Positions 11,895-32,600 of a stretch of DNA of 64,000 bases are shown piece after piece. How positions within the stretch are numbered: the stretch's first letter is position 1; the number at the start of each line of letters is the position of its first letter. Position numbers and translations under genes: made by a program. The notes beneath the pieces were generated by a model that saw only the letters and a program-made list of their open reading frames with translations, had not been told where the DNA came from and did no database searches. This stretch comes from Bifidobacterium sp. ESL0769 (GTDB lineage: Bacteria > Actinomycetota > Actinomycetes > Actinomycetales > Bifidobacteriaceae), in assembly GCF_029395495.1 (NCBI RefSeq), contig NZ_CP113918.1, forward strand, positions 1,922,001 to 1,986,000, written 5' to 3'.

Positions 11895-12126
11895 TCTCAC
11901 GACCTTTTGCACACGTAACCGCACACATCAGACTATTTTTTATATTATATCGATTGAAGAAAATTTGCAATACGTTAATGAATATAGTGACTTTATATAC
12001 AAAACAAAAGGAAAACCAGAACGCTAAGACCATATACCGCAGCTTGGGATAAAAACGTTTCATACGCAGACCCGACACCAAAGCAGTAACGCCCAAGCAG
12101 CCGCCACAACCCGCGACGTTGCGGAG

Positions 12127-15006: not shown

Positions 15007-15480
15007 TCACCCGACAAGCAACACCACTGCCGAAGCGATGGGGCCATCATGAGTCAATGAGACATGCCAACGCAACGCCGGAAAATCCGCACCCAAGGAT
15101 TCCCTCAATCTGGCTTCGCAAACATCGGCCAACACGACACGGGGCCGAGAGCGCGAATCGTCGAGAATCTCGATCTGGCCCCAAGGAAAATCGTCAAGTG
15201 TATACGGGTTCGGCCGATCAGCGAGCGCCTCGCACCACGCCTTGAGCACTGCTTCCTTTCCAGCCCAACGAACGGCCAGATGTGCGGCCTCATCATCATG
15301 CTTGACTTTGGCACGCGCCGCAGCCTGCCTCAATTCGCGCGTGGAAAACAGCGCCCTGAAACGCGAACCGGGTTCACGCAGCTGTTCGGAAAACGCTGCA
15401 ACATCCACCACGTCGTGCCCTACCCCGAGCACCAGCGAACCATACGGCCTCGCATCCCTGCCAACTTTCGCGTCTATCAC
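15007..15480 (-). CDS. acpS: Holo-[acyl-carrier-protein] synthase
   Basis: This 157-aa AcpS-type phosphopantetheinyl transferase moves 4'-phosphopantetheine from CoA to the serine of an ACP. The two family signatures are present: GVGHDVVDVAAF (metal-binding Asp23) and VRWAGKEAVLKAWCEAL (Glu76 and Lys), with a C-terminal WHVSLTHDGPIASAVVLL. Its likely substrate is the ACP domain of the FAS I polypeptide encoded at 29655-39077, which lacks its own transferase domain. The start is GTG at 15480, without a strong Shine-Dalgarno; a later GTG before GVGHD would shorten the protein. It lies 173 bp downstream of BspA-type gene 2 on the same strand and is separated from the FAS gene by the surface-protein island. 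Confidence 0.9.
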   Translation of the reverse strand: MIDAKVGRDARPYGSLVLGVGHDVVDVAAFSEQLREPGSRFRALFSTRELRQAAARAKVKHDDEAAHLAVRWAGKEAVLKAWCEALADRPNPYTLDDFPWGQIEILDDSRSRPRVVLADVCEARLRESLGADFPALRWHVSLTHDGPIASAVVLLVG

Positions 15481-15653: not shown

Positions 15654-18600
15654 TCAGATATTGGCTGAATCCAGGTTACGGTGACGCGCGAGAATGTAGT
15701 CGTTATTCCTATATGCAAACAGCAGCAGGAACAGGGGGACCAAGAACACCAGCAGCCACCAGAAATTGAAGCTCGTGTGCATCCCTGGCGCGGGCGCCGA
15801 AGCTCCAATCGAGCACTGAGGCAGACCGTTGTAGTCGGAAAGACTCCAAGCAGAGCTCTGCACATAGGCGCTGCCATCGGGTTCGATCCAGTAAACGGGC
15901 TCGTTGCCGCGCTTGCCGGACTTCATCTTTTGGTAGACATCCTCGGGAATGCACTTGGGACGCGGACGCTGCTGCTGCGGAACAGACGCCACACCGTCAG
16001 AACCGGCAGCAGGGGCCGGAGCCACGGCGTTACCGGCCACACGCTGCGCCGGAGCAAACGCCGGAGCGGCAACGGGCAACGCGACCACTGGAACAAGTGC
16101 AGACTGCCGAGGGACGGCATTCCTACCATTATTGGTGACATTCTGCGAGGCCTGATTTTGAGTTGGTGCCGTAGGGACCCTTGGAGTTGTAGGATTCGTA
16201 GGCGTCGTCGGAACCGTAGGACGTATCGGTGTCGTAGGATTCGTCGGCCTGGTAGGCATTTCGGGACTCGTCGGAGTCGTCGGCGTAGCAGGAGCCACCG
16301 GCTTAGCAGATGTCGTCGGAGTGGAAATCACAGTAGCATCTTTGGCCCACACCGCATACAACGTGGTCGTGCCAGGCGCGACCCTAATCGTACTGCCGGC
16401 GCCATAGAAGCCACCATGCATATCCTTCCGCGTCGCCCAGGTCAGAAGCTTATAACCCTCGACCTTGAACTCCTTTTTGGTGACCTGGTGCCCATAATGA
16501 AGCAGGTCGACCCCTGAAGCGGGATTCACGGTGAACACGTCATCAGGCACACTCCCGGTAGCCGTCAGACCTTCCGGTGCATTGGCTTCGTAATGAATTC
16601 TGTATTCCAAAGCCGAAGGAATAAGCGGCGTGGAAGGCACACCCTTGCTCTGCCACTGCGCCCAGAGACGAATATTCTCGCCGCGATTGAAGTTGGTGAC
16701 GGTGTCGCCCCTCTTGAATGACATCTGACCGCCGTGCTTGCCGGAATTCCAACCGAGGAACTTGTAGTTCTTGGCGTGGAACATCAGACGAGGAACCTTG
16801 ATTTTGATATCCTCGGCCTTGGCCCCGACCTTGCGAATCGTGACAGGTGACCCGCTGACCTTCGCGTGCTTCGGAGCGTTCTTCCTAAAGCTCACCTCGG
16901 CGAATTCCTGCCAGACATAGGTACCGCCTTCGAATCCGGAATCCTGAGTCAACGCCGCCAGGGCATGGTTGTCGTCGCTCGCGTCGCTCGTCCAGGTGTT
17001 GTCGCTCTTCGTCCAGCGGCCGGTATAGCCGTTGTCCTCGGTGGCACCGCCGGCATCAGGCGTGAAGCCGAAGAACGAATCCGCGATCTTGGTTCGCGGT
17101 CCCAGCTTCAGCGATTTCATACCATATGGGAAAGCGTACGTGCCTGAAGTCACGGCATGGGTATCCCAACCGGAAAGATCAATCGTGGTGAAAGCGAAAT
17201 CACCATTGAATATATCGTCTATATCGGTGACACTGGAAACGTTCCAGTCCGAGAGTCCCTTGATTTGGGCCAGCTGCCCCTGGCGGCTGAACATGGAATC
17301 CATATCTTTGACACTCGAGGTGTCCCAACCGGACATGTCCAATGAGGTCAACAAACCGGAATGATCGGAATCGATATAAAACATCGCGTCCATACTGGTC
17401 ACTTTGCCGGTCTTGAAGCCTGTAAGCCCTGAAACCTGCGTCAAAGAATAATCATCGAAGAACATATTCAGCATATCCGTGGCGGCATCGGTGCTCCAAC
17501 CGGTCAGGTCAAGCGACTTCAGCGCATAATCGTCCTGGAAGAAGCAGGTGAACCACGTGTTCTTGCTCACGTCCCAATTTTTGATACCCGGCACCTCCGT
17601 CAAGTTGGGCATGTTCGCGAATATGCCCTGCATATCAGTGACCTGGCCCATACCCCAATGAGAGACATTGCCGACAGAACTGATGCCTGTGTCAAGGAAC
17701 ATCCATTCCGCGCACTTGGCGTGGCTCAGATTCCAGCCGGAAAGATCACCGACGCTCAAAAGCTTGGGATTACTTTCAAACATATCTCGGACATTGGTGT
17801 TGTTGCTCATATCCCAGCGCGACAAATCGCCGATGGAATCAAGCACCGAACCGCCTTGGTAATCAGTGCGGAACATATAAGAAGTATCAGTAACGGCTGA
17901 AGTGTCCCAATCGTCGAGACCGCTGATCGTGGTCAGCGCGAGGTCTTGTTCGAACATAGCGCCCATATTGATGGATACGCCCGTCTTCCATTTGCTGGAA
18001 GCCTTGGTGCCAGGCAGCCCTGCGCCCGGTGCAGTGCGCTTGGTACCCCAACCTGTCAGGTCAACGCTCTTCAGCTTAGGATCACTTCCGAAGAACGCCC
18101 CCAACTTCAGGTTGCCGGTCTGGCCTTCGAGACGGCTGAAATCAAGATCATCTACATGGTCGATGCTTTCCAGATTCGGATATCCTTGGCAGTCGAAATC
18201 GGTTTTGGGCACAAAATGCGTGTTGGTGGCGTCATCAAACACGATACGGACAATATTATTGTGCAATTGCTTGCCGTTCTCACTATGATCCAACACAACG
18301 GAGGGCTCGTTCACATAAGAGCCGAGCACACCCGAACCAAAATGCAGCACTTCCTTATTCGGCGCGGTTTCCTGAACATACCAATGCACTTTTTCGGTGC
18401 CATTCTCGTTGCCGCCCCAATCGCCCTGGGCCTTAATCGAGGGATCAGGATCGCCCTGAGCCTCGGGCTGCTGCTGCGAACGAGTCAAAGGAGCCTGCGT
18501 CTTCTGCTCGGTTTTGGCTCCGGAAATCTGCTGCGCCTGCTCGGACTCCGTCTTCTTCGGCGCTGCCACTTTCCCGGCCTCCGGCTGTGACGACGCTGAA

Positions 18601-18815
18601 ACCACCGGGCTTTCAGACTGCTTGAGATCGGTATTGGCTTCGGCACTCTTGCTAGTGTCTGCCGACGCTACATCACTGCTTTGGGATGTTTGCGAAACAG
18701 TCGATGACGAACCTGTAGGAGTGTTGGCACTATCGGCAGAGGCCACAACACCGGTTCCGAGTGCCATTGCGGCAGCTACAAGTAGCCCAATTGCCGCCTT
18801 GTTCCAAGATTCCAC
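15654..18815 (-). CDS. BspA-family surface protein 2 (1053 aa), membrane-anchored
   Basis: The signal peptide ESWNKAAIGLLVAAAMALG ends at VVASADS and is nearly identical to that of BspA-type gene 3. A Ser/Gln/Lys-rich spacer reaches about 130. A GDWGGNENGTEKVHWYVQE domain follows, then DUF285/BspA repeats (WDTSAVTDTSYMF, WDTSSVKDMDSMF and others, about 230-580) and two Listeria-Bacteroides repeats (ending LWAQW and LYAVW). The stalk is Pro/Thr-rich (TPTTPTSPEMPTRPTNP). Cys955 and Cys1001 bracket a juxtamembrane module (PKCIPEDVY ... DYNGLPQCS). The protein ends with WWLLVFLVPLFLLLFAYR and a charged tail. There is no LPXTG motif. The start GTG 18815 is fixed by AAAGGGG upstream. The gene is preceded by a short upstream ORF at 18839-18901. 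It is probably an adhesin with unknown ligand. Confidence 0.85.
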   Translation of the reverse strand: MESWNKAAIGLLVAAAMALGTGVVASADSANTPTGSSSTVSQTSQSSDVASADTSKSAEANTDLKQSESPVVSASSQPEAGKVAAPKKTESEQAQQISGAKTEQKTQAPLTRSQQQPEAQGDPDPSIKAQGDWGGNENGTEKVHWYVQETAPNKEVLHFGSGVLGSYVNEPSVVLDHSENGKQLHNNIVRIVFDDATNTHFVPKTDFDCQGYPNLESIDHVDDLDFSRLEGQTGNLKLGAFFGSDPKLKSVDLTGWGTKRTAPGAGLPGTKASSKWKTGVSINMGAMFEQDLALTTISGLDDWDTSAVTDTSYMFRTDYQGGSVLDSIGDLSRWDMSNNTNVRDMFESNPKLLSVGDLSGWNLSHAKCAEWMFLDTGISSVGNVSHWGMGQVTDMQGIFANMPNLTEVPGIKNWDVSKNTWFTCFFQDDYALKSLDLTGWSTDAATDMLNMFFDDYSLTQVSGLTGFKTGKVTSMDAMFYIDSDHSGLLTSLDMSGWDTSSVKDMDSMFSRQGQLAQIKGLSDWNVSSVTDIDDIFNGDFAFTTIDLSGWDTHAVTSGTYAFPYGMKSLKLGPRTKIADSFFGFTPDAGGATEDNGYTGRWTKSDNTWTSDASDDNHALAALTQDSGFEGGTYVWQEFAEVSFRKNAPKHAKVSGSPVTIRKVGAKAEDIKIKVPRLMFHAKNYKFLGWNSGKHGGQMSFKRGDTVTNFNRGENIRLWAQWQSKGVPSTPLIPSALEYRIHYEANAPEGLTATGSVPDDVFTVNPASGVDLLHYGHQVTKKEFKVEGYKLLTWATRKDMHGGFYGAGSTIRVAPGTTTLYAVWAKDATVISTPTTSAKPVAPATPTTPTSPEMPTRPTNPTTPIRPTVPTTPTNPTTPRVPTAPTQNQASQNVTNNGRNAVPRQSALVPVVALPVAAPAFAPAQRVAGNAVAPAPAAGSDGVASVPQQQRPRPKCIPEDVYQKMKSGKRGNEPVYWIEPDGSAYVQSSAWSLSDYNGLPQCSIGASAPAPGMHTSFNFWWLLVFLVPLFLLLFAYRNNDYILARHRNLDSANI

Positions 18816-19077: not shown

Positions 19078-19120
19078 AGGAAGTGGCGGTTGGCAAATGT
19101 GATGCCAACCGCCACTTCCT
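19078..19120 (-). terminator. Terminator of BspA-type gene 3
   Basis: An 18-bp perfect inverted repeat (arm AGGAAGTGGCGGTTGGCA, 7-nt loop) starts 41 bp past the stop at 19162. The tail on the minus strand is ATATTTATG. Confidence 0.75.
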
Positions 19121-19161: not shown

Positions 19162-22100
19162 TCAGACAGAGACACCGTTGCCGGTCGCGCCGTTATAATA
19201 CTGGGCGTTCTTCTTGTCATTCCGCTTGTTCTTCTCGTAGATGTACGTCGAGACGACAATCACAATCAGAAGCAACAGGAGCAGGAGCCACCACCAGTTG
19301 AAGATGTTATGGTTCTGAGCCTTCACCTCCGGGGCGGGAGGATTCGCGAAAGCGCACCTCGGCAAGCCCTCGTAATCCGAATCGCTCCACTCAGCAGGCG
19401 TGCCGTAAGCCGTCTCGTCGGCCTCGAGCCACGCGACCTTGTTGGCGTTCTTCTTCTTGTTGTTCAGCCTACGAGCCACGTCGTCAGGCATGCACTTCGG
19501 GCGAGCCTTCTTCGGGGCATTCGTCTTCACCTTGCTGTCCTGCTGATCCTTAGGTGCAGGAGTCTGGGAGGGCTGGGTAGGAACCGGAGCGGTTGCATTC
19601 GGGGATACACCTACGGTCACACGGTAGGGAGCGTAACGGTAGACGACAGAAGCCTGCGGAGCCAACGCAGCGGGTTGCACAGTGACCGCTCCACCGTTAT
19701 TGCCGTTGTTGCCATTGTTTCCGTTATTCCCACCGTTGTTGTTGCCACCGGGTTGCGGACCTGGAGCCGGTGCGGGAGCTGGAGCAGGTGCCGGGCTAGG
19801 AGCTGGCGGTTCCGGTGCCGGGCTAGGCGCAGGTGCGGGCGCGGGCGCAGGAGCAGGAGCAGGAGTCTTCGTCCACTGGGCATAGAGCGTGGTCTTGCCA
19901 GGCTTGACGCTGATAATGTTGCCCACCCGATAGATACCTCGGCTACCGTCCCGAGCGGTGCTCCAGCCGATAAAGGTGTAGCCTTCGACCGTGTAGCCGC
20001 TGGCCAGAACCTGACGATCCTGATTAATCCAGTTGCCCACCTGATTGGCAGGTTGCACGTCAAAGGCATCATCAGCCATAGAGCCCGTTGCCGTCAGCCC
20101 CTGGGGTGCGTTGGCCACATAATGGATGCCATAATGTGCCGGCTGCTTTTGAATCGTGGTGGCAGGGACGGAAGACTTCTTCCACTGGGCATAGAGCTTG
20201 ATGTTCTGGCCACGGGTGAAGCCCTTGACGACATCGCCCTTCTTGTAGGCCTTCTGTCCGCCGTTGGCGTCGGTATTCCAGCCCTTGAAGGCATATCCGT
20301 CAACAGTGAATGCAGAATCAGGAGCCGTGATCTCGATCTTCGAGGCATCAGGCCCAGCCTTACGAATGGTATCGAGAGAGCCAGTGAGCGTCGAGCCTTG
20401 AGGCGCGTTTCCGTCAAAGCTCAGCTCAGCGAATTCCTGCCAGACATAGGTGCCGCCTTCGAATCCAGAAGCCTGGGTCAACGCAGCCAAGGAGGCGTTA
20501 TCGTCAGAAGAATCGCTCACCCAGCTGCCATCGCTCTTCGTCCAACGACTGGTATAGCCGTCGGCCTCAACAGCACCGGAAGCATCGGGCTGGAAGCCAA
20601 AGGAGGACGAACCCGGAATCCTGGTATGCGGACCAAGCTTCAGGGATTTCACACCATATGGGAAAACATTTGTGCCCGAAGTTACGGCACGGGTATCCCA
20701 ACCGGAAAGATCAATCGTGGTGAAAGCGAAATCACCGTTGAACATGGAGGTCATATCGGCGACCTTGGAAACATTCCAGTGTGAAAGCCCCTTGATTTCG
20801 GTCAGTTGCTGCTGACCGTCGAACATGTAACTCATGCCAGTGACGTTCGAGGTATCCCAACCAGTCAGGTCCAAAGATTTCAACGAGCCGGAATGATTGA
20901 AACCGGAGTAGAACATCATCGTCATATCAGTTACCTTGCTGGTATTGAAATCGTCAAGGCCCTTGATCTCCGTCAATGAATAAGCACCAGTGAACATATA
21001 GTGCATAGACGTAGCAGCATTGGTATGCCAACCGGTCAGGTCAAGGGAGGTGAGTGAAGAATCTTCGTCGAACATACTCGTAAACCACCTATTCTGGCTC
21101 ACGTCCCAGTTTTCAAGACCTGGTAATTCTGTCAAATTGGGCATATCATAGAATATTCCCTGCATATTCGTGACGTTGCCCATTCCCCAACCGGAAACAT
21201 CGCCAACAGAGCTGATGCCGGTGTCACTGAACATCCATTCCGCACATTCGTCTTTGCTGAGATTCCAATTCGACAAATCGCCGACACTGGTAAGTTTGAA
21301 ATTATATGCAAACATATCCTGGGTATTGGTATTGTTGCTCATATCCCAGCCAGACAAATCGCCAACAGAAGTCAGCTTCGAATTAGAATCAGTATCCGTC
21401 CGAAACATCATAGATGTGTCGGTGACAGCCGAGGTATCCCAATCGTCAAGTCCGGTTACCGCAGTCAATACAGTATCATCGTCGAACAAATCGCGTAAAT
21501 TGATGGACACATGAGTCTTCCATTTACTGGAAGCCTTGACACCAGGAAGACCTGCACCCGGTGCGGTACGACCAGCGCCCCAACCGGTCAGGTCAACAGT
21601 CTGGAGCTTGGGATCATTAGCGAAGAACGAGGTCAAATCCAAAGTACCGGTCTGCCCTTGAAGAAGGCTAAAATCAAGGTCGCCGACATTGTCGATGCTC
21701 TCCAGATTATCATATCCGCCACAGTCGAATCGGCTTCCGGGCACGAAATGCGTGTTGGGAGCATCATCAAACACAATGCGGACGATATTGTCCCTTATTA
21801 CCTTGTTCGATTGATAAGACCACAATATGTCAGTAGGCGAACCCCTATAGTGAGCACCAAGCACACCCGAACCGATATGCATCACATACTGGTTCGGCGT
21901 TGTTTCCTTTACATACCAGTGCACTTTTTGACTGCCATCGGCGTTACCGCCGAAATCCCCTTGAATCTTAATGGAAGGATCCGGGTCATCCTGCGTCGCT
22001 GGAGCCGGATCCTGTCTGGCTTGCACAGCTGGAGCCTGCTTGGCCTGCGTATCGGCCTTTGCCGAGGTTTGCGCCTTAGTAGGCTGGGTGCCAGCCTGCG

Positions 22101-22374
22101 GCGTCGTCGCGGAATCGCCCTGCTTTGCCTGCGACATCGCAGAAGTCGTTCCCGGCTGGGAACCGGCCGGTTGCTTCGCCTCGATATTCACTTCACCGGG
22201 CTTGTTCGTGGAAAGCCCGGCATTATCATTTTGAGACTTTTGAACCACTTGAGTGGTCGGTTGTGCGTCGGCAGTACTTGAGCTGGCCTCATCGGCAGAT
22301 GCCACCACGCCGGTACCAAGAGCCATTGCCGAGGCGACAAGCAGACCAATCACCGCCTTGTTCCACGATCTCAT
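19162..22374 (-). CDS. BspA-family surface protein 3 (1070 aa), membrane-anchored
   Basis: This is a close paralogue of BspA-type gene 2 with the same order: signal peptide RSWNKAVIGLLVASAMALG ... ASADEAS; Gln/Thr/Ala-rich spacer; GDFGGNADGSQKVHWYVKE domain; DUF285/BspA repeats (WDTSNVTGMSYMF, WNVSKVADMTSMF); two Listeria-Bacteroides repeats ending LYAQW; a Pro-Ala stalk (PAPAPAPAPAP) and an Asn-Gly run (GGNNGNNGNNGNN). Cys961 and Cys1007 form the juxtamembrane module, with the same 46-residue spacing as gene 2. Then come WWWLLLLLLLIVIVVSTYIY and a Lys/Asn-rich tail. The start is ATG 22374, because AAGG lies five bases upstream and the signal peptide aligns with its paralogues; upstream ATGs at 22377 and 22437 are in frame. 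The gene is divergent from the first LytTR/DUF3021 operon. Confidence 0.85.
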   Translation of the reverse strand: MRSWNKAVIGLLVASAMALGTGVVASADEASSSTADAQPTTQVVQKSQNDNAGLSTNKPGEVNIEAKQPAGSQPGTTSAMSQAKQGDSATTPQAGTQPTKAQTSAKADTQAKQAPAVQARQDPAPATQDDPDPSIKIQGDFGGNADGSQKVHWYVKETTPNQYVMHIGSGVLGAHYRGSPTDILWSYQSNKVIRDNIVRIVFDDAPNTHFVPGSRFDCGGYDNLESIDNVGDLDFSLLQGQTGTLDLTSFFANDPKLQTVDLTGWGAGRTAPGAGLPGVKASSKWKTHVSINLRDLFDDDTVLTAVTGLDDWDTSAVTDTSMMFRTDTDSNSKLTSVGDLSGWDMSNNTNTQDMFAYNFKLTSVGDLSNWNLSKDECAEWMFSDTGISSVGDVSGWGMGNVTNMQGIFYDMPNLTELPGLENWDVSQNRWFTSMFDEDSSLTSLDLTGWHTNAATSMHYMFTGAYSLTEIKGLDDFNTSKVTDMTMMFYSGFNHSGSLKSLDLTGWDTSNVTGMSYMFDGQQQLTEIKGLSHWNVSKVADMTSMFNGDFAFTTIDLSGWDTRAVTSGTNVFPYGVKSLKLGPHTRIPGSSSFGFQPDASGAVEADGYTSRWTKSDGSWVSDSSDDNASLAALTQASGFEGGTYVWQEFAELSFDGNAPQGSTLTGSLDTIRKAGPDASKIEITAPDSAFTVDGYAFKGWNTDANGGQKAYKKGDVVKGFTRGQNIKLYAQWKKSSVPATTIQKQPAHYGIHYVANAPQGLTATGSMADDAFDVQPANQVGNWINQDRQVLASGYTVEGYTFIGWSTARDGSRGIYRVGNIISVKPGKTTLYAQWTKTPAPAPAPAPAPAPSPAPEPPAPSPAPAPAPAPAPGPQPGGNNNGGNNGNNGNNGNNGGAVTVQPAALAPQASVVYRYAPYRVTVGVSPNATAPVPTQPSQTPAPKDQQDSKVKTNAPKKARPKCMPDDVARRLNNKKKNANKVAWLEADETAYGTPAEWSDSDYEGLPRCAFANPPAPEVKAQNHNIFNWWWLLLLLLLIVIVVSTYIYEKNKRNDKKNAQYYNGATGNGVSV

Positions 22375-22412
22375 CATTTCCTTCTTTCTCTTATACATCG
22401 TGATACGACTCT

Positions 22413-22448
22413 GATTTATTGGCAAAACTAAAACCATGCCAATAAATC
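22413..22448 (-). promoter_or_regulatory. 12-bp inverted repeat in the leader of BspA-type gene 3
   Basis: Perfect arms GATTTATTGGCA and TGCCAATAAATC are separated by 12 bases and end 38 bp before the start codon. It could be an operator or an RNA hairpin in the 5' leader. There is no T-run directly after it. Confidence 0.5.
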
Positions 22449-22512
22449 TGACTTTAAATTCATGTACATCGTTTAACGCTACATTAATCAGATTCGTATT
22501 TAAAAATCCTCA

Positions 22513-22546
22513 AGCCAAACGGTCAAAAATTGCAGGTAAAAGGTAC
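22513..22546 (-). promoter_or_regulatory. Candidate LytTR binding site (tandem half-sites)
   Basis: On the minus strand ACCTTTTAC and ACCGTTTGG are direct half-sites with ACC starts 21 bp apart (12-bp spacer). This is the arrangement known for LytTR-domain activators (AgrA, HdrR/BrsR type). The site lies about 140 bp upstream of BspA-type gene 3; TTGACC overlaps the second half-site and could be a -35, with TTAAAT 17 bp on as -10. The assignment is by pattern only. Confidence 0.45.
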
Positions 22547-22548
22547 AA

Positions 22549-23037
22549 AAATAAGGGCGAAAAGTATCGGAATGAATGAAGATCCATCATGCAACTTTAT
22601 CCTTCCCACTACAATGAGCAAAAAGAATTACACCATCGCCAAACCACGAAGATTACCGACAATAAAGCCATTTCTGTCATCATTTTTAATAAGCAAAGTA
22701 TGCGATTCCTTATTTATTAGACATGTCAATCCTTTTAATTACGATAGACGATTCAAGAACTATTGCTCGATTTACAACAAGGAAATATCCGACAGAGGCG
22801 AAAGCATATATAATGAAGCAACGAAGTGGTTGTTCAGCAATGGAGCATTTAGGCCCCAAATATTGCGCAAGTATGACAAGAATGTCTGGACTGCCTATCA
22901 GGCTACTTAAACAAACAAAGTATGAGTTAATTAACCGGTAAGTGTATATTTATAAACATGTCTTACGTATGAATCGGGGAAAGCAAGAGCGGGGACTTCT
23001 CATACACAGGCATATAACGGGGAAAGAACAGGCATTT
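22549..23037. other. AT-rich intergenic region before LytTR gene 1
   Basis: This stretch has a clearly lower GC content than its neighbours and presumably holds the promoter of the LytTR/DUF3021 operon. An open frame of 126 codons (22530-22910) and one of 72 codons (22723-22941) cross it, but neither has a Shine-Dalgarno, GC-rich third positions or a recognisable product. I see no other structure. Confidence 0.4.
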
Positions 23038-23526
23038 ATGAGTATCACGTTCCGAGCAAATCCTGACCTGTCGGACGACGAACTAAACGTCATCATCGAG
23101 GCGGCGAAGCCCAGTGACGAAGCAATGCAGCTTATGCAGGGTATCAGAAAAATAACCCGGCTGAACACCTCCACAATCGTGGTCAACACCGAAGAATCGT
23201 TGGAGCTCATACCCATCGCGTCAATCATCGCCGTCGAAGTACATGACGACATGCTGCTGCTGCGGCTGATACAGAACAAAGCTGCGACGCAAAATCCGCG
23301 AGCCCCGAGCAACACGATCGCCACGCGCGACACACTTGCCCACTTCTTACGGCGTCTGCCCAACGAATTCGTGAGAATTTCGCGCCAGAGCGTCATCAAC
23401 ATCAATCATCTGCGATCATTAAAATTGAGCTATTCCGGCAATATGATAGCCAGCCTTGACGCCGAGATAGATGAGACCGTAGGACGACGATACGTAGCCG
23501 ACCTGAGAAAAATAATAGGAGCATAG
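23038..23526 (+). CDS. LytTR-domain DNA-binding regulator 1
   Basis: This 162-aa protein has an N-terminal part (MSITFRANPDLSDDELNVII, EAMQLMQGIRKI) and a C-terminal LytTR DNA-binding domain from about residue 65. The latter has IPIASIIAVEVHDDMLLLRL, TIATRDTLAHFLRRLP, and the signature FVRISRQSVININHLRSLKL followed by VGRRYVADLRK. There is no receiver domain, so it is a stand-alone LytTR regulator. The start is ATG 23038 (AGG eight bases upstream), which gives the same 162-aa length as the paralogue at 25061. The stop TAG is two bases before the TTG of the DUF3021 gene, so the pair is an operon. Such pairs match LytTR regulatory systems, in which the membrane partner restrains the activator. 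Its likely targets are the adjacent surface-protein genes (inference). Confidence 0.85.
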   Translation: MSITFRANPDLSDDELNVIIEAAKPSDEAMQLMQGIRKITRLNTSTIVVNTEESLELIPIASIIAVEVHDDMLLLRLIQNKAATQNPRAPSNTIATRDTLAHFLRRLPNEFVRISRQSVININHLRSLKLSYSGNMIASLDAEIDETVGRRYVADLRKIIGA

Positions 23527-23528
23527 GC

Positions 23529-24125
23529 TTGCAATACCAAGAAAAATCGGCCGAGAACTTTTTGAATGGTGATACGAAAAATATCGGAGATACCGGAATC
23601 AGCGGTACGAAACAACCATCCGTCGACATCGATTTCGATTTCAACGAATGCAACGACCACGACGGACATTACAGCCACTCCAACCGATTGCCGACGCGGG
23701 GTGAATCATGGCCGCGCGCCATCCTGAGCTATGCCATCAAAGGCATACTGTTCGGCTCGGCGGGCGCGGTCTTGATTGAGATATTCATTCCCGGCTGGAT
23801 TCCGATCACCAGGCTGGGAATGCTGACGATGCTCCTGATCGACGCACTGATCGGCATCGTCACACTCGTCTTGCAGCGTTCCGACCTGCCGCTGTTCGTC
23901 ATCATCCCCACGCACCTGATCTGTACCTTGCTAATCTGCATCGGCTGGATCTATATCAACGGCTGGCAATGGCACGTCTTCCACGAGGAGCTCACCCTTT
24001 TCGTGGTCGGGTTCATCGTGGTGTACGTCGTGATCTGGGCTGGCATACTGTTCTATTTCAATTTCATCGCCAGCAACATCAACAGACGCTTGAGTGACAG
24101 AAAGCATATGCGCCGCAAGAACTGA
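23529..24125 (+). CDS. DUF3021-type four-helix membrane partner of LytTR regulator 1
   Basis: This 198-aa membrane protein has about 70 polar residues and then four helices: ILSYAIKGILFGSAGAVLIEI, LTMLLIDALIGIVTLVL, LFVIIPTHLICTLLICIGW, LFVVGFIVVYVVIWAGILF. A basic tail (RRLSDRKHMRRKN) follows. This is the DUF3021 pattern. The start is TTG 23529 with AGGAG nine bases upstream; no ATG lies before the first helix. In LytTR regulatory systems the membrane protein inhibits its cognate regulator; that role is inferred from gene order. It converges on the small surface-protein gene, with 14 bp between stops and no terminator visible. Confidence 0.75.
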   Translation: MQYQEKSAENFLNGDTKNIGDTGISGTKQPSVDIDFDFNECNDHDGHYSHSNRLPTRGESWPRAILSYAIKGILFGSAGAVLIEIFIPGWIPITRLGMLTMLLIDALIGIVTLVLQRSDLPLFVIIPTHLICTLLICIGWIYINGWQWHVFHEELTLFVVGFIVVYVVIWAGILFYFNFIASNINRRLSDRKHMRRKN

Positions 24126-24139
24126 AAAAATCTGGCCGC

Positions 24140-24730
24140 TTACCTGACCACGAACCGGCCGTTGCAATGATGCGCATACATATTGCGCTTGTCTTTGCTG
24201 GTTTCGTGATGGTAGGTCATGGCCAAAATCGCAAAAACGACGACGGCAAACACCGCCAGCACCGACCAGTTGAAACGCAAGGCTGTGTCTGCGGAAATCG
24301 CGCTGCGAGCCTGGCCCGTCGTGCATTGCTGGACCTCAATATGCTCATTCTGGTCGCAAATCGCGTTGTCACCCGCGGCATCGCCGTCATTAGGGCCTTC
24401 GATAGGCGTGACGGGAACCTTGTGGCCTTGTGGAACCGGGGTGGTGGGAGCACTCTGTGAAGGAGTATTCTGTGCAGAATTGTTCTGCGAGGGAGCATTC
24501 TGTTGCGAAAGCTGCGAAGTAGTGACCTTCGAAGTGGCATCCTGAGAAGGATTATTCTGCAAAACGGCATCATTTGAAGGAATGTTGTGCAAACTATCGC
24601 CCTGAACGGCAGCGACAATCGGGTAGGCATCGACGGCGTTGGAATTCACGGCTGCGTTCGCGGCGACGGGCGCAACACCCATAGTCGCCGCTACGCACAA
24701 ACCAATCAGAATCCTCTTCAACGCCTTCAT
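24140..24730 (-). CDS. Small secreted, membrane-anchored protein (196 aa) resembling a repeat-less BspA-type protein
   Basis: The signal peptide KRILIGLCVAATMGVAPVAA ends at ANAAV. It is followed by an Asn/Gln/Ser/Pro-rich linker with QNxPSQ-like repeats (QNNPSQ, QNAPSQ, QNTPSQ), then ICDQNEHIEVQQCTT with two cysteines 12 residues apart, a C-terminal membrane span FNWSVLAVFAVVVFAILAMTY and a basic tail. This is the same order as the large surface proteins (signal, disordered stalk, cysteine pair, anchor) without the BspA and Listeria-Bacteroides domains. No homologous family is recognised. ATG 24730 has GAGGGAAACG upstream. It is divergent from the second LytTR operon, and they share the 330-bp intergenic region. 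Confidence 0.75.
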   Translation of the reverse strand: MKALKRILIGLCVAATMGVAPVAANAAVNSNAVDAYPIVAAVQGDSLHNIPSNDAVLQNNPSQDATSKVTTSQLSQQNAPSQNNSAQNTPSQSAPTTPVPQGHKVPVTPIEGPNDGDAAGDNAICDQNEHIEVQQCTTGQARSAISADTALRFNWSVLAVFAVVVFAILAMTYHHETSKDKRNMYAHHCNGRFVVR

Positions 24731-25060
24731 CGTTTCCCTCGACTAGCTCACTTTCCTTTATTCAGACCCTCTTCGCTTACGTTTCGTGTCCAAGGATCTT
24801 GCTAACTATGCCATCAATAAAGATACCACGGTACACCGGAGGACCACGCAATCGTCTCAAGCCAATCACACGTTTCATTGGTTAAACGGTATTGAATAAG
24901 TGGTGAAAACAATGTTATTACGACAAATTGTGTAGCTATTCATACATATTATGTATTATTGTAGAGACGGTACTTGTGAGAGCTTTGATATGGCAATGTA
25001 TGCCCTTTCATAAGCGGATTGATTCTTCCTACTGACCAGAAGAAAGACTGGGTGGAGCAT
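24731..25060. promoter_or_regulatory. Divergent intergenic region between the small surface protein and LytTR gene 2
   Basis: No gene is seen. The minus strand contains TACCGTTTAACC (complement of 24890-24901), which resembles a LytTR half-site, but I find no second half-site at 21 bp. An AT-rich stretch (24900-24965, with TATTATGTATTATTG) is a plausible promoter region. The LytTR ribosome binding site is TGGAG just before 25061. Confidence 0.4.
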
Positions 25061-25549
25061 ATGAGCATCACGTTCCGCGCGAATCCTGATTTGCCTAAAG
25101 GCAGCGTGAATATCATTGTCGAAGCGAACGAAGCAACCGAGGAAACCGTCCAACTGATGCAGTCAATCAAAACGCTGCAACGGCGCAACATGACTACCAT
25201 CGCCATTGAAACCGACGGCAGCTACGAAATCATACCGACCGCCGCCATCGTCGCCGTGGAGGTCGACGGCGAGATGCTCGACATCCAGATTCTTGTCAGC
25301 CAAGGCGACACCGCACGAAAAGGTCAGCTGATCACCACTCTGACTACCCACGACACGCTCGTCCATTTCATGACGCGGCTGCCTACCGAATTCGTTCGCA
25401 TATCGCGCCAGGCGCTGATTAACATACGCCACCTGCGCTCCCTAAAACTCAGTTATTCCGGCAATATGAGCGCAAGCCTCGACGGCGGCAAGGAAGAGAT
25501 TGTCGGTCGACGCTATGTACCGGGTCTTCGTGAAGTGATTGGAGCATAA
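25061..25549 (+). CDS. LytTR-domain DNA-binding regulator 2
   Basis: This 162-aa paralogue of LytTR regulator 1 has the same start (MSITFRANPDLPKGSVNIIV) and the same C-terminal signature FVRISRQALINIRHLRSLKL, with VGRRYVPGLRE. It also contains IPTAAIVAVEVDGEMLDIQI and TLTTHDTLVHFMTRLP. It has no receiver domain. The start is ATG 25061, with TGGAG upstream and alignment to the paralogue; the open frame extends back to 25019. It ends 2 bp before the DUF3021 gene 2 start, so the pair is a coupled operon. The operon is divergent from the small surface protein gene and convergent on BspA-type gene 4. Its targets are inferred to be nearby surface genes and possibly its own operon. Confidence 0.85.
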   Translation: MSITFRANPDLPKGSVNIIVEANEATEETVQLMQSIKTLQRRNMTTIAIETDGSYEIIPTAAIVAVEVDGEMLDIQILVSQGDTARKGQLITTLTTHDTLVHFMTRLPTEFVRISRQALINIRHLRSLKLSYSGNMSASLDGGKEEIVGRRYVPGLREVIGA

Positions 25550-25551
25550 CG

Positions 25552-26130
25552 ATGAAGAAATTGCACAGCCCAGCCGGTAGTTTCAGCACTTTGTTGCGGC
25601 CTTCGCGCAATGAGTCGAAGTTTGCCATGATTTTGAACTACGCCATCAAGGGGCCGATGATCGGCTCACTGACGGTGGCTGTCATCGAACTGTTCCTGCC
25701 CGGATGGATGCCCATCGGTCGAATGAGCATGGGCACGATGCTCATCATCGACGTCATCTTGGGAGAGCTGACGTTGGCGCTGTTTTGGAGCGACCTGCCT
25801 TGGTCCATCATCATTCCGCTGCAAGGGTTCTCCACTCTGGCGCTTTCGGTGTTGTGGGTCTATATCACCGGCGGGAAATCGCATCTGTTCAGCGACGAGA
25901 TGCTCGTTTTCGTCGTCCTGTTTATCGTGCTTTATATCTGTGCCTGGCTGGTAATCTTGCTTTATTCGCGGGCGATCACCGAAGGAATGAACCAACATCT
26001 GAACGCACGTCTCTCTACTTTCAAAGCCAAAACCTACAACGATGGTGCGAGCGATGCTGACGAAGGCGTCGAAAGCAGCGAAAGTCTTGGGAACGCTAGC
26101 GCTGAAACCGAGCAAACTCAATATAAATAA
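25552..26130 (+). CDS. DUF3021-type four-helix membrane partner of LytTR regulator 2
   Basis: This 192-aa protein parallels the membrane protein at 23529. It has a short N-terminus (MKKLHSPAGSFSTLLRPSRN), then four helices: LNYAIKGPMIGSLTVAVIEL, MGTMLIIDVILGELTLALFW, IIIPLQGFSTLALSVLWVYI, LVFVVLFIVLYICAWLVILL. A soluble Ser/Glu/Ala-rich C-terminus of about 50 residues follows. The conserved AIKG, LPGWMPIGRM and YITGGK segments also occur in the first copy (AIKG, IPGWIPITRL, YINGWQ). ATG 25552 follows the LytTR stop by two bases, with GGAGCATAACG as overlapping ribosome binding site. The role as membrane-bound antagonist of the LytTR protein is inferred from known LytTR regulatory systems. Confidence 0.78.
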   Translation: MKKLHSPAGSFSTLLRPSRNESKFAMILNYAIKGPMIGSLTVAVIELFLPGWMPIGRMSMGTMLIIDVILGELTLALFWSDLPWSIIIPLQGFSTLALSVLWVYITGGKSHLFSDEMLVFVVLFIVLYICAWLVILLYSRAITEGMNQHLNARLSTFKAKTYNDGASDADEGVESSESLGNASAETEQTQYK

Positions 26131-26223
26131 TCCGCTCTTCGACCCCTCTGGTAAAAAGTGAAGAAAACGCGGGCATGACTTTAGCCATGCAATCAGTAAA
26201 TGCTCTCTTCAACTGTGATAACG

Positions 26224-26262
26224 AAAGTGCCTGTCACCGAACGAATCAGTGACAGGCACTTT
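26224..26262. terminator. Bidirectional terminator between DUF3021 gene 2 and BspA-type gene 4
   Basis: A 14-bp perfect inverted repeat (AAAGTGCCTGTCAC / GTGACAGGCACTTT, 11-nt loop) lies between the two convergent stops at 26130 and 26315. It has short T-rich tails on both strands. Confidence 0.7.
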
Positions 26263-26314
26263 GCTTTCGTAACTTTTCAGGCGGTTAATGCGCCATCCAC
26301 GTTACTTTTGGAAA

Positions 26315-28960
26315 CTACTTCTTGATCGTGGCGGAATCGAAATCACGATGGCGCGCGACGATGTATCCGCCGTTCCTGTAAGCGAGGAGCAACAGGAAGA
26401 GAGGAATCAGGAAGAGGAGCAACCACCAGAAGCTGAAGTGGCGTACCATGGCGCTCGGGGCCGAAGCCTCAACCTCACAACGCGACAGACCATTATAGTC
26501 GGAGAGCTTCCAAGCCGCAGCCTCGGCATCTGCCGTGTCATCACTCATATCGGTCAAATCGACGGGCTGGGTGCCATTGCTGTTGTTTTTGCGCTTGGCA
26601 GCCTGTATCTTACGATAGACGTCATCGGGAATGCACTTCGGACGGGCGCGCTGCGGCAAGGGCTGCTGCTCGACCGGAGCGGCAGGGGCAGTGGCTGTGG
26701 GCGCCGCACCGTTATTGCTCGGGGCGGGAGCAGCCGCACGCGCTGCGGGAGCCGGGGACGGCAACGGGGTCCTAGCGGCTGGCAACGGGGTCCTAGCAGC
26801 TGGCAACTTAGGCGCAGGAGTAACCGGCGGGTTCGGCTGAGCAGGCGGGATCACCGGAGCCGGAGCAGGTCCAGGAACGGGGTCAGAAGCCTTCCACTGA
26901 GCGTAGAGCACAGTCGTGCCCGGTGCCACCTTGATGATGTCTCCCGGCTTGTAATCGCCGCGATTGGAGCGCCAAGAAGTGAACGTATAAGTTCCTCCAG
27001 CGATCGTATATCCATTCTTCGCGACTTCACGCGGATAATTGTTCAGATCGACGCCGGCAGAGGGAGAGACATTGAAGCTGTCATCGGAAACGGTTCCGGT
27101 GACCGTCGAACCTTCAGGGGCGTTCGCCATATAACGAATGACGTAATGCTGAGACGTCTGCGGCTGAGACTTGAGCTCCCACTGGGCATAGAGCTTGAGG
27201 CTGTGATTGCTACGGGTGAAGCCACTGGCTATCTGGCCCCCTACGTATTGTGTACCACTACCCCTCGGATCCGTGTTCCAGCTCTTGAAGTTGTACTTGG
27301 TGGAAGAGAACCCTGAAGGCGAAATCGGAATACTGATGCGCGTCGCGTCAGCCTTTTCCACACGCTGAGTGGCAGTGGTGCCGGTGAGGTTCGCATCGCT
27401 CGGAGCGTTGCCTTCGAAGCTCACTTCGGCGAACTCCTGCCAAACGTAAGTACCGCCGGCAAACGTGGAAGCGTGGGTCATCGCAGAGAACGATTCATCG
27501 TCTCCACCCCTGCTGACGCTCACCCAGCTGTCGTCGTCCTTCGTCCAATGACCGCTGTAACCGTTCTCGTCAGTGGCACCGGCGTCGGACGGTTCGGTGT
27601 TATAGCTGAAATACTCCGGGTACATCAGGGCCTTCCTACCCAGAATAAGCTTGTTCAACGTCCTCGGGAATGCCGTCTCCCCAGTGACATAACCAGTGAC
27701 ATTATGCGTAGACCAATTCGACAGATCGAGAGTTGTCAGCAAATCATCTCCGATGAAGAGCCAAGACATATCCTGCAGCGCAGGTGTACTCCATCGATGA
27801 ACATCAATATTCCGCAACTTCGCATCATAGCCGAACATTACGCTCATTGCCTCTACTTTTGAAACATTCCAGTTGGAGACATCCAGACTCTCCAGATTTA
27901 GCATGCGGTTGAACGTCAATTCCATGTCTGTAACATTGCCCGTGTCCCAATTGGACAAATCCAAGGACTGCAGGCCCGAAGAAGCAAACGTGTTGTCTAA
28001 TGAGGTCACGCGAGAAGTGTTCCAATCATTAATGCCGATGACTTCTTGAAGCGACGAAGTTCCTTGGAACATGCTGGCCATGCTCGTGGTATTGGACGTG
28101 TTCCAACCAGTGGCATTGACGGTTTTCAGGTTGGGATCCGCGCCGAACATCTGCGTCATATTCTTAATCCCCGAGGTATCGAGACCAGCGGCATCGACAC
28201 TCACCAGGTTGGGATCCTTATAAAACATCATGGCCCCACCCGTAACGCCTGAAATGTAATGCAGGCCTTCGATTTTGGTGACAGTCGGCAAACCGCCGAA
28301 CATAGAAGAAAGATCGGGCTGGGCGGGAGTGACAGGCGCATCAAAGACGATGTGGGTCACCATGTCGTTGTCGCGGAACGGGGCGACGTTGTAGAAACCG
28401 AAAATCCCGCCATGGATATAGACCGTGCAAGCACCCTCGGAGTCTTTCTGGAACGTATATGTCGAGTCTCTGGAGTCACCGTAAACACCCCACGAGCCGT
28501 TGCCCTGGCAAGTCTCATCCTGAACCTGCGGAATCTGAGGGGTTTGCTGAATTTGCGGAGCGGGGGCTGGCTGCGCCTTGTGATCAGGGGACTGCGCGGT
28601 TTCGCTGGCCTTCGACTGTGTCGAGTTGTTGTTGCCTTGCTGCGCAGCGCCCGAGGTCTCCTTGCCAGCTGCGGCACCCTGCTGCGTTGCACCGGACGAC
28701 GGTGTGGCCGTACCGGATTGCGCACCAGACTGGCCTGCGGTTGCACCCTGACCAGCAGCCGGAGCTTGGACCGGATTGCTGCTCTGCTGGGCTGGAGAAG
28801 TTGCCGGCGCGGCGCCTTGAGTGGCCGACTCAGCGGATTGAGCAGACGGCGCAGCGGCAGACTGCGGCTCGCTTTCGCTGGCGGACGCTGTAGCGAATGG
28901 CGTGGCAATCATCGCGGCTGCGGCAAGCATACCGACAATCGCTTTGTTCCAAGACTTCAT
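26315..28960 (-). CDS. BspA-family surface protein 4 (881 aa), membrane-anchored
   Basis: The signal peptide MKSWNKAIVGMLAAAAMIA ends at ASASE; the SWNKA start is shared with BspA-type genes 2 and 3. An Ala/Gln/Ser-rich spacer (20-150) leads into GNGSWGVYGDSRDSTYTFQK, then DUF285/BspA repeats (WNTSNTTSMASMF, WDTGNVTDMELTF, WNVSKVEAMSVMF; about 210-440) and two Listeria-Bacteroides repeats ending LYAQW. A Pro/Ala stalk follows, in which a 21-bp unit is tandemly duplicated at DNA level (26761-26802). Cys776 and Cys828 form the juxtamembrane module (PKCIPDDVY ... DYNGLSRCE). Next come WWLLLFLIPLFLLLLAYR and a charged tail. There is no LPXTG motif. ATG 28960 is preceded by purine-rich GGGAGAGGAAGAGAAGC. 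Its role is presumably adhesion to host or plant surfaces; the ligand is unknown. Confidence 0.85.
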   Translation of the reverse strand: MKSWNKAIVGMLAAAAMIATPFATASASESEPQSAAAPSAQSAESATQGAAPATSPAQQSSNPVQAPAAGQGATAGQSGAQSGTATPSSGATQQGAAAGKETSGAAQQGNNNSTQSKASETAQSPDHKAQPAPAPQIQQTPQIPQVQDETCQGNGSWGVYGDSRDSTYTFQKDSEGACTVYIHGGIFGFYNVAPFRDNDMVTHIVFDAPVTPAQPDLSSMFGGLPTVTKIEGLHYISGVTGGAMMFYKDPNLVSVDAAGLDTSGIKNMTQMFGADPNLKTVNATGWNTSNTTSMASMFQGTSSLQEVIGINDWNTSRVTSLDNTFASSGLQSLDLSNWDTGNVTDMELTFNRMLNLESLDVSNWNVSKVEAMSVMFGYDAKLRNIDVHRWSTPALQDMSWLFIGDDLLTTLDLSNWSTHNVTGYVTGETAFPRTLNKLILGRKALMYPEYFSYNTEPSDAGATDENGYSGHWTKDDDSWVSVSRGGDDESFSAMTHASTFAGGTYVWQEFAEVSFEGNAPSDANLTGTTATQRVEKADATRISIPISPSGFSSTKYNFKSWNTDPRGSGTQYVGGQIASGFTRSNHSLKLYAQWELKSQPQTSQHYVIRYMANAPEGSTVTGTVSDDSFNVSPSAGVDLNNYPREVAKNGYTIAGGTYTFTSWRSNRGDYKPGDIIKVAPGTTVLYAQWKASDPVPGPAPAPVIPPAQPNPPVTPAPKLPAARTPLPAARTPLPSPAPAARAAAPAPSNNGAAPTATAPAAPVEQQPLPQRARPKCIPDDVYRKIQAAKRKNNSNGTQPVDLTDMSDDTADAEAAAWKLSDYNGLSRCEVEASAPSAMVRHFSFWWLLLFLIPLFLLLLAYRNGGYIVARHRDFDSATIKK

Positions 28961-29654: not shown

Positions 29655-32600
29655 TTACGCGAAGTAGCCGTCGGAGCCGAGGCGTGCGTCCGGGTTGAGG
29701 AGCATCGCCTTTTCGACCTCGTGGGAATCGTAAATCTTCGTGTCTTCGTGGAAGCGACGGTTGTCGATCTCCTCGTAGAGCGGGGCCTCGCCCATCATGC
29801 CCATCAAGCGGCGACGCTCGCCACGGGCCAGACGCTCGTTGGCACGCTTACGCCACTTGTCGAGCGCATCCTGGCCGTACTCGTTGGCCACCGAAGCCTC
29901 GAAGGCACCTGGATTGACGAGAGCGACGAAGCCAGAGACATGGCCAAAACCGAGCGAGGTAACCAGGCCGGCCTTGACGGAGCCGATGTTGAGCGGCTGC
30001 CTGAGCCAGACCATGTGGTCGTCCTTGCGCATCTTCGGGTCGACGCAGTCGAGAGCCGCGTTGGCCGGGATGACGCCGGACTTGAAGAGCTGCGTGACGC
30101 CATCAATCTGGAAGATTGCGGCGCCGCCCATCGCGTGACCGGTCAGAGACTTCTGCGAGATGACGAACAGCGGGTTTCCATCGTTGCGGCCGATGGCGTG
30201 CTGGATGGAATTGTGTAGCTCGGATTCGTTGGAATCGTTGGCGTTGGTGGACGTGTCGTGCTTAGAGACCACGGCGATGTCGTCGGGGGCAACACCAAGA
30301 CGTGCCAACTGGCGAACCAGCTGAGAATCCTTGCCACCCTGAGCCGCAGCGAGCGCACCCAAGCCTGGAGCCGGAATCGAGGTATGTGCACCGTCAGCGA
30401 AGCTGTGGACGTAACCAACCACGGCCGCGACCGGCAGACCCATCTTCAACGCGATGTCGCCACGGGTGACGAGCATCGTGCCGCCGCCCTCGGATTCCAC
30501 GAAGCCGTCGCGGCGACGGTCGTTGGAACGGGAGAAGAAGCGGTCGGAGATACCCTTGCCATACATCACGTTCGCGTCGGCGGTGGCACCCATGTTGCCG
30601 AAGCCGATCACCGAATCCACGCCGATGTCATCGATCGCACCGGTGACCACGAAGTCCGCCTTGTGCAGGGCAATCTTGTCCACGCCCTCTTCCAGCGAAA
30701 CCGCAGCGGTGGCGCAGGCCGAAACCGGCTGAACCATGTTGCCGTAGCCGCCGATATAGGACTGCATGACGTGCGCAGCGACGACGTTCGGCAGGGCCTC
30801 CTGCAGAATGTCGGTCGGAATCTCGTGGCCGAGGAAGCGATCGAGATAGAGCTTGCGCATGCTGGCCATACCGCCGAAACCGGTGCCTTGCGTGGAAGCG
30901 ACCATCGAGGGATGAATCGTCTGCAAGACCTCTGAGGGGCTGAAGCCGGCAGAGAGGTAAGCGTCAACGGTGGTGACGATATTCCAGAGCGCAATCTCGT
31001 CGACCTCACCGACCATGGAAGCGGGGATGCCCCACTTGACCGGGTCGAAGCCCTTCGGGAACTGGCCACCGACGGTGCGGGTCATCGCGAAACGCTTGGG
31101 CACGCGAATCATCGAACCGGGCTGGCGGGTGACACTCCACTCGCCGGATTCTTCGTCCTGCACGATCTGGGTGTGCTCGGCGTCCATGATGACGTACTGC
31201 TGGGCGATCTCTTCGGTCGGCACGCCGAAGGTGACCTCATGGTCGAGGTAGATCTCCACCTCACCGCTGGCGGTTCCTTCCTGATAGTCGCCGCTGCCCA
31301 TGCCGTTGTCGAAGGGACGCAGGCCAGAACGGGCCACGACCTCGTCGTGATAACGCTCGGCGATGTCCGCTTCAGGCACGAGGTTGCCATCGGTGTCGTA
31401 CCAGCCGGCGTTCGGGCTATCCTGCCAAGTGACCAGACCCATGTTCCAAGCCAGCTCGAGCACCGCTCCTGCGGAGAGGTCGACGCTGCCGTCGGGGTGG
31501 ATCCCGAGCTCGGCCTCGCTGCGGGTGCGGCCAGAGCCCCACGGACCCAACTCACCGATGGAGACGATGACGATTTCATCCTCGGGCTTGACGGTGACGT
31601 TGCGCCAGTCGGCGAGGTTGACCTCGGCCTGACGCGGCGGATTCGGGGTCGGCAGCGCCTTGATGAGCGTCGCCTTTCCATCCTTGCTCTTGTCGCTATC
31701 AGCTTGTGCATCTTCGTCTGCGTTTGCCGCGGCCGAATTGGCCTTGTCGGCCTCGGCTTCGGCACGAAGCGCGGAGATATCGATGGGCTCGTTGCCCAAG
31801 CCACCAGTCAGATCGGCGCGAAGCGGGGCCTTTTCGGCCTGCTTGCGGGCATCGGCGTCGGCCAGATTAAGAAGCTGACGCGCGATCTCTTCGGTGGAAT
31901 AGGTGCGGATGCCGTGGCGTTCGACGACGTCGACCAGCGGGTCGTTGCCGCCCATCAGACCGGTGCCACGCACCCAACCGATCAGCGGGTGGGCGAAGGT
32001 GACCCTGCCGGACCAATCTTTCTCCGCGTGGGCACGGGTGACGATGGCATCGAACGAGGCCTTGACCTCGCCGTACGCGCCGTCGCCGCCGAAGACGCCG
32101 CGGTTCGGGGAACCGGGCAGGACGACGTGGAGCTTGTGCTGCACGTCGGTGTCGCCGCCGATGGCTGCGAAGCCGGTGATGGCACGCTCGACGCCCCAGA
32201 GCATCAGACGTGCCTGCGACTCGAAGAGCTGACCGGAGTCGGACATGGTACCGTGCACCGGAGGTGCCGCGAACGGGAAGAAGAGACTGGGCTCGTAGGC
32301 CGGCTTCAGGATCGTGGTGGTGGCGCCGGTGGTCTTCTTGCTTACGCCGCCGACCCACTTGACTAGCGCATCGACGTCGCGATAGCTGGAGAGGTTGGCC
32401 GGAACCAGCCAGAGCTTGGCGTCACCGACCGCGTGCTCGCGGTAGACCTGCTCGGCCCAAGCTTTCACGGACTGCTTGAAGCTGTGAGAGGTGGCGATAA
32501 CCGTGGCTCCCCCAGCCAACAGGCCTTCGACGACCTGGCCTGCGATGGAGTTCGGAGCCACGCCGGTGACCACGGCGACATCGCCGGCAAAGCGGGATGC

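Follow-up and report, generated by a model that had tools for sequence, protein, structure and literature searches.

LytTR regulatory systems (LRS) combine a LytTR-only regulator with a small membrane protein, and > 4600 putative LRS operons are counted in the part of PMC6193735 available to us. In this part of the 2018 paper, the Streptococcus mutans systems (HdrRM and BrsRM) were called the only characterised LRS, with unknown signals and with bacteriocins, competence and cell death as targets, and the LRS geometry was given as 10 bp from the repeats to the -35 and a further 17 bp to the -10. In the accessible parts of other studies, the mutant of a Staphylococcus aureus gene in an LRS-homologous operon emerged from a surface-protein trafficking screen (PMC13104630), a LytTR/DUF3021 pair was among the strongly down-regulated genes in mixed biofilms of Fannyhessea vaginae (PMC11410844), and other surface proteins were described for bee bifidobacteria (PMC4449606). 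A search of the partly accessible literature, with subscription journals and preprints outside its reach, found nothing linking LRS to Bifidobacterium surface genes. Here we analysed a window, i.e. the whole stretch of 64,000 nucleotides from Bifidobacterium sp. ESL0769 (NZ_CP113918.1, positions 1,922,001 to 1,986,000; coordinates below are those of the window), which carries two LytTR/DUF3021 pairs, one of them facing a gene for a surface protein of the DUF285/PARCEL type across a LytTR-type operator.

The two pairs consist of the following genes (aa, amino acids):

23038-23526, + strand: LytTR1, LytTR-only regulator, 162 aa (Pfam LytTR, 49.4 bits)
23529-24125, + strand: partner 1, DUF3021 membrane protein, 198 aa, TTG start (Pfam DUF3021, 41.3 bits; hydropathy)
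25061-25549, + strand: LytTR2, LytTR-only regulator, 162 aa (Pfam LytTR, 50.4 bits)
25552-26130, + strand: partner 2, DUF3021-like membrane protein, 192 aa (homology to partner 1)

Pfam, coordinates and homology all bear out the original prediction of two such pairs with 162-aa regulators. The operons span 23038-24125 and 25061-26130 on the + strand, with 2 bp between regulator and partner in both. LytTR is the sole domain that Pfam finds in LytTR1 and LytTR2, with no receiver in either, so that both have the soluble form of LRS regulators and neither that of a two-component response regulator (receiver plus LytTR). Directly downstream lies a small membrane protein of the LRS kind (DUF3021 or DUF2154), recognised by Pfam in pair 1 and by homology in pair 2. 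The regulators share 55% identity and the partners 46% over 137 aa. Partner 2 has no Pfam match of its own, being below detection as DUF3021, and hydropathy gives four transmembrane segments for partner 1 and three above the cut-off used for partner 2; the description ‘four-helix DUF3021’ is therefore clear for partner 1 only. In the tree, LytTR1 clusters with proteins of the relatives G088 and G093 (support just 0.645), and LytTR2 forms a separate branch. All regulator homologues that carried a name in the protein search were from Bifidobacterium sp. ESL strains, in agreement with the predicted Bifidobacterium host. We take the ESL strains to be bee isolates, and the host group is probably bee-dwelling. 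As predicted, both regulators diverge from surface genes, LytTR1 from PARCEL gene 3 and LytTR2 from a 196-aa ‘mini’ gene.

PARCEL gene 3 and the interval between it and LytTR1 have the following features:

19078-19120, - strand: terminator-like hairpin of 18 pairs, 3' of PARCEL gene 3
19162-22374, - strand: PARCEL gene 3, 1070 aa, DUF285 and Listeria-Bacteroides repeats, N-terminal hydrophobic and C-terminal membrane segment
22476-22504, - strand: proposed promoter of PARCEL gene 3, -35 TTTAAA (22504-22499) and -10 TAGCGT (22481-22476), weak hexamers placed by position only
22515-22544, - strand: LytTR-type operator toward PARCEL gene 3, ACCTTTTAC-12 bp-ACCGTTTGG, A-tract in the spacer
22545-22568, - strand: weaker third repeat (TTTTCG), one 21-bp period upstream, aligned in 18 sites and recognisable in many

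The operator consists of two 9-bp repeats 12 bp apart, followed by 10 bp, the -35, 17 bp and the -10, a spacing which agrees with the 33-bp offset found in 14 of 18 aligned sites. It was scored with a 9-bp matrix made from 20 of the 25 LRS repeat pairs in the table of PMC6193735 (Roseburia, one Chlamydia row duplicating another, the archaeal row and two Bacteroides rows were left out). The pair reached 15.6 bits, a score attained by 0 of 400 dinucleotide shuffles, and equivalent pairs toward the facing PARCEL gene were found in the relatives G085 (16.1 bits) and G088 (15.8 bits), again with 0 of 400 shuffles each. No above-threshold pair toward the divergent gene was seen with this matrix in the remaining 8 of the 11 regions. 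An open reading frame (ORF) of 126 codons in the same interval (22530-22910, + strand) was discarded as a gene; it is probably a decayed remnant, because its frame is interrupted in G085. Elsewhere in the window, a 9-13-9 LRS-like repeat pair (5775-5805, + strand, 16.1 bits) has no obvious target gene.

We consider it likely that each pair is an LRS-like switch in which LytTR1 activates the divergent PARCEL gene 3 and LytTR2 perhaps the mini gene. In detail, the membrane protein would keep the LytTR protein inactive until an envelope or population signal releases it. Freed LytTR1, and perhaps LytTR2, would then bind the direct repeats, which lie one 21-bp period apart and 10 bp ahead of the PARCEL gene 3 -35, and so activate this gene. 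LytTR2 probably acts likewise, more weakly, at the mini gene. DNA binding, gene activation, the inhibitory role of the membrane protein and the signal are what we infer. The opposite sign, in which PARCEL gene 3 is repressed by the LytTR-only proteins until the membrane partner lifts the repression, would be compatible with the sequence alone, and the LytTR-only BlpS is a repressor according to the accessible part of PMC8545106. However, the repeats leave the promoter uncovered and are placed ahead of the proposed -35, which is the LRS activation geometry, and we regard repression as very improbable.

To describe the operator beyond single repeats, a 30-bp matrix was built from 12 training sites, which, like the 18 aligned sites, were partly chosen by eye and include orthologous pairs. 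With this matrix the site before PARCEL gene 3 scored 36.5 bits (33.2 when left out of training), the next in the window 13.0. Leave-one-out scores ranged from 19.6 to 33.2 bits, and six further sites that had not been used for training reached 20.0-32.4; in 688 kb, no unrelated sequence exceeded 15.8 bits. The sites share the A-tract in the spacer and often the weaker third repeat one period upstream. A -10-like element stands 33 +/-1 bp from the operator in 14 of the 18, which is the spacing published for LRS; offsets outside 31-34 give 0-7. Similar operators stand before PARCEL genes, pilin-like genes or other genes with a signal peptide in five relatives, and most are followed by a -10-like element at 33 bp. 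Activation by an LRS-like switch is thus suggested by an operator, a geometry and a recurrence before surface genes that are directly observed.

Pattern searches gave a similar picture with regard to position. Three of the five exact matches to an IUPAC pattern lie before PARCEL genes, namely our PARCEL gene 3 (the sole exact match in its genome), its G085 orthologue and a gene for a 1117-aa DUF285 protein in G085; the other two lie inside an ORF beside the LRS of G086 and in G083. As a spacing control, a spacer-13 pattern had no exact match in 9 genomes. Position 62-144 bp before a signal-peptide gene was found for 6/30 spacer-12 and 0/30 spacer-13 matches (Fisher p 0.012; our Fisher tests treat related genomes as independent, so that p values are indicative). 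Inspected here were 30 of 56 spacer-12 and 30 of 33 spacer-13 matches plus nine hand-picked regions, and ‘surface gene’ was judged from the N-terminus. In the spacer-13 set, an ORF with a hydrophobic start 89 bp downstream (L097) was judged no such gene, and counting it gives 1/30; in the spacer-12 set, a lipoprotein-like ORF 268 bp downstream (L117) was left uncounted. A refined pattern with <=1 mismatch gave 13 matches in 10 genomes. Signal-peptide genes, PARCEL or other, follow 10 of them, a distant-clade LRS operon in G087 follows 1, and 2 stand before neither; most of the 13 helped to shape the pattern, the G093 site C1:196398 did not. In the case of that G087 operon, the motif faces the LRS's own operon (29 bits). 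One orthologous ACC-type pair with a 13-bp spacer and an A-tract, upstream of a topoisomerase-like gene in G085 and our genome (L080:1501 and L084:1501), may be a spaced variant or chance.

The comparison of loci places the pairs in a variable interval, whose other features are:

6825-11924, - strand: PARCEL gene 1, 1699 aa, outside the acpS-fas interval, without strong operator
15007-15480, - strand: acpS (holo-ACP synthase by sequence, named by eye), island border; homologue beside fas in 17/17 genomes
15654-18815, - strand: PARCEL gene 2, 1053 aa, without strong operator
26315-28960, - strand: PARCEL gene 4, 881 aa, without strong operator
29655-39077, - strand: type I fatty acid synthase gene (fas), other island border

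PARCEL genes 2 to 4 lie between acpS and fas, and PARCEL gene 1 across acpS. In our genome (G000) and 16 mutually related ones, the acpS-fas junction is empty in 7/17 (G001, G006, G011, G012, G013, G084, G089), holds PARCEL genes and no local LRS in G083, G086 and G087, and combines PARCEL genes with an LRS opposite one of these genes in G000, G085, G088 and G093. In the case of G090 and G092, two LytTR genes are present and LytTR1 is faced by acpS instead of a PARCEL gene; these are the two relatives that keep LytTR1 without the facing PARCEL gene, and in both a truncation or frameshift breaks partner 1, which we count in favour of the LRS-like switch. As for G091, LytTR2 stands alone, its partner being absent and the mini gene a remnant. 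As a separate observation, the fatty acid synthase gene is spread over two or more frames at L167 (G086) and L174 (G012), through sequencing error or a real break.

Absence of co-occurrence in relatives had been named beforehand as evidence against a link, and co-occurrence was present. Strong matches to the LytTR alignment (E below 1e-40) comprise 21 genes in 13/112 genus genomes; a PARCEL gene lies in the roughly 20 kb covered at 6/7 close-clade loci, the seventh having a 51-aa fragment only, and at 2/10 distant-clade loci. DUF285 occurs in 34/112 genus genomes, so that PARCEL genes are found without such LRS too. As an alternative, the pairs might control other genes and stand beside PARCEL genes by sharing an insertion hot spot between acpS and fas, as the variable, often empty junction, the three junctions with PARCEL genes and no local LRS, and the three window PARCEL genes without operator might suggest. 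The operator does, however, stand before the facing gene in all four genomes that have a LytTR1-type gene opposite a PARCEL gene (G000, G085, G088, G093; 20.5 bits in the last), and in relatives it also occurs before PARCEL or pilin-like genes elsewhere. A shared hot spot is thus, in our opinion, quite unlikely as the explanation. Regarding distant-clade loci, we also observed operators before two pilin-type-domain genes and a divergent signal-peptide gene in G087 (about 178-183 kb, L056:1035-5683); the LytTR gene of a distant-clade LRS other than the one named above lies at a distance of about 5-8 kb. At L051, L053, L057, L058 and L059, LRS-like repeat pairs are found 2-2.5 kb upstream of distant-clade LytTR/DUF3021 genes, and the loci looked at have transporter-like genes (named by eye) in between.

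We also compared which LytTR proteins accompany the operators. A refined match before a surface gene was found in 6/7 genomes with an intact LRS and in 0/3 without (Fisher p 0.033). Our genome additionally carries, at about 129-133 kb (L061:8209-12556), a 239-aa response regulator (receiver plus LytTR) beside a GHKL-domain kinase gene; next to it, a gene for a 506-aa signal-peptide protein without Pfam match is preceded by a 30.8-bit operator, with an orthologous site in G085. Both this neighbourhood and the precedent of BlpS (accessible part of PMC8545106) would fit an operator that mainly serves this two-component system, with the LytTR-only proteins competing as antagonists. Against it, G088 has operators and a single detected LytTR protein, which faces the operator-bearing PARCEL gene, and G093 has two LytTR proteins, both LRS-type; G083 and G089, whose LytTR proteins are all of response-regulator length and give no match to the LRS alignment, have no refined match at <=1 mismatch. 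We therefore judge the two-component explanation unlikely.

Several observations weigh against activation by LytTR1 and are listed together. Only one of the four PARCEL genes has a strong operator, as the 30-bp matrix found none before PARCEL genes 1, 2 and 4, and no convincing repeats point toward the LytTR operons. In the two closest genomes the operator is conserved at 27/30 positions, no better than its surroundings (87%). G087 has an operator-bearing PARCEL gene without a local LRS, and G092 has an intact LytTR2 pair, yet no refined match before a surface gene. The IUPAC pattern gave 56 matches with <=1 mismatch in 9 genomes (121 for the reversed-pattern control) and 5 exact matches in 12 genomes (5 for the control). 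The refined pattern with two mismatches gave 80 in 10 genomes (118 for the control). Since raw genome-wide counts are not enriched, the evidence consists of position, geometry and conservation.

Toward the LytTR operon, weak pairs were present in 4 of the 11 regions (7.0-9.5 bits, shuffle p 0.015-0.08) and are not the motif shared by the operators. The pair toward LytTR2's own operon (9.5 bits, p 0.015) overlaps the -10 region, and none was found toward LytTR1 in the window, where strongly divergent repeats could escape detection. Neither pair thus has recognisable repeats just upstream of its own -35. The proposed LRS membership therefore holds for the gene architecture and lacks a convincing operator facing the own operon; as the surface gene is faced instead, we use the term ‘LRS-like variant’.

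The surface genes had been announced as a ‘BspA/Listeria-Bacteroides-repeat’ set. Listeria-Bacteroides repeats exceeded the Pfam cut-off in 2/4 proteins, while none of the four window proteins matched LRR_5 (PF13306, the BspA type) at E 0.001; one relative's PARCEL protein came close (26.3 of 27.7 bits). Instead, DUF285 (PF03382) was found in 4/4 and PARCEL repeats (TIGR02167) in 3/3 tested with NCBIfam, so that ‘BspA-type’ was rejected as family name in favour of DUF285/PARCEL. The proteins have hydrophobic segments at the N-terminus and, as a membrane segment, at the C-terminus, and the final 80 residues of the large ones contain no LPxTG; judged by these features, they qualify as exported PARCEL proteins. 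Our genome has about 20 DUF285 frames, with a strong operator before PARCEL gene 3 only in the stretches scanned. Seven very long ones (1590-2197 aa) cluster near the contig end at 2.44-2.496 Mb (L066-L068), an area that also has GCAACTTRG-12-GCAACTTRT-like pairs (L067:18220 and L068:939).

A regulatory link to the surface genes is consequently suggested for PARCEL gene 3, by its operator, and not for PARCEL genes 1, 2 and 4. Control of the whole four-protein set was rejected, because these three genes have no operator and the 18-pair hairpin follows gene 3. This hairpin is the longest of 26 terminator-like sites, compared with 16.1 expected from shuffles.

In the case of LytTR2, the facing region is less clear:

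24140-24730, - strand: mini gene, 196-aa protein with signal peptide, linker and C-terminal membrane segment, no repeat domain
24828-24820, - strand: extended -10, TGGTATCTT, 32 bp downstream of the degenerate block
24861-24890, - strand: degenerate operator-like block before the mini gene, ACCGTTTAA-12-GTGATTGGC, 3.2 bits

The mini protein, for which the protein search gave one close relative, has a signal peptide that weakly resembles the PARCEL 3 one (E 0.002 over 45 aa). ORFs facing LytTR2 encode 196, 122, 138 and 72 (remnant) aa in G085, G090, G092 and G091. The block recurs at the equivalent aligned place in G085, G090 and G092 (4.6, 16.2 and 5.0 bits), and the extended -10 lies at the right distance in four orthologues. 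A canonical 9-12-9 operator was therefore rejected for our mini gene, leaving a degenerate block at a conserved place. The proposal of ‘two separately tuned switches for one adhesin set’ fits insofar as there may be one gene per switch, with LytTR2 and the mini gene on a degenerate operator; it does not fit one set. In a bolder and unlikely extension, the two diverged switches would form a surface-identity circuit in these Bifidobacterium, each controlling the gene it faces. The mini protein, exported and anchored in the membrane but lacking binding repeats, would be part of the signal or of a sensing complex read by the DUF3021 protein, and expression of the large PARCEL protein would be all-or-none in single cells.

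As a whole, this is an LRS-like module with a defined, testable target promoter before a surface protein, and G088, with its single detected LytTR protein, would suit a study free of LytTR cross-talk. Compared with the LRS of S. mutans, as far as described in the accessible part of PMC6193735, the likeness lies in a LytTR-only regulator upstream of a small DUF3021 membrane protein and in 9-12-9 ACC-type repeats 10 bp from the -35. The differences are that the repeats here precede the divergent surface gene and not the regulator's own operon, that the proposed targets are PARCEL surface proteins and not bacteriocin or competence genes, and that the second membrane gene is under Pfam detection of DUF3021. 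LytTR/GHKL two-component systems of the AgrA and BlpR type have a LytTR DNA-binding domain and a similar operator, whereas the pairs here have a membrane partner in place of receiver and kinase. BlpS of Streptococcus gallolyticus is likewise a small LytTR-only regulator; according to the accessible part of PMC8545106, this protein of 108 aa uses sites in common with a response regulator of the LytTR type, lacks its own membrane partner and is encoded in one operon with the two-component genes that it acts against. With the PARCEL/DUF285 surface proteins in the accessible part of PMC2996958, finally, our proteins share DUF285 and TIGR02167 repeats, and they differ in their Bifidobacterium signal peptide, membrane-anchored C-terminus and LRS-like neighbour.

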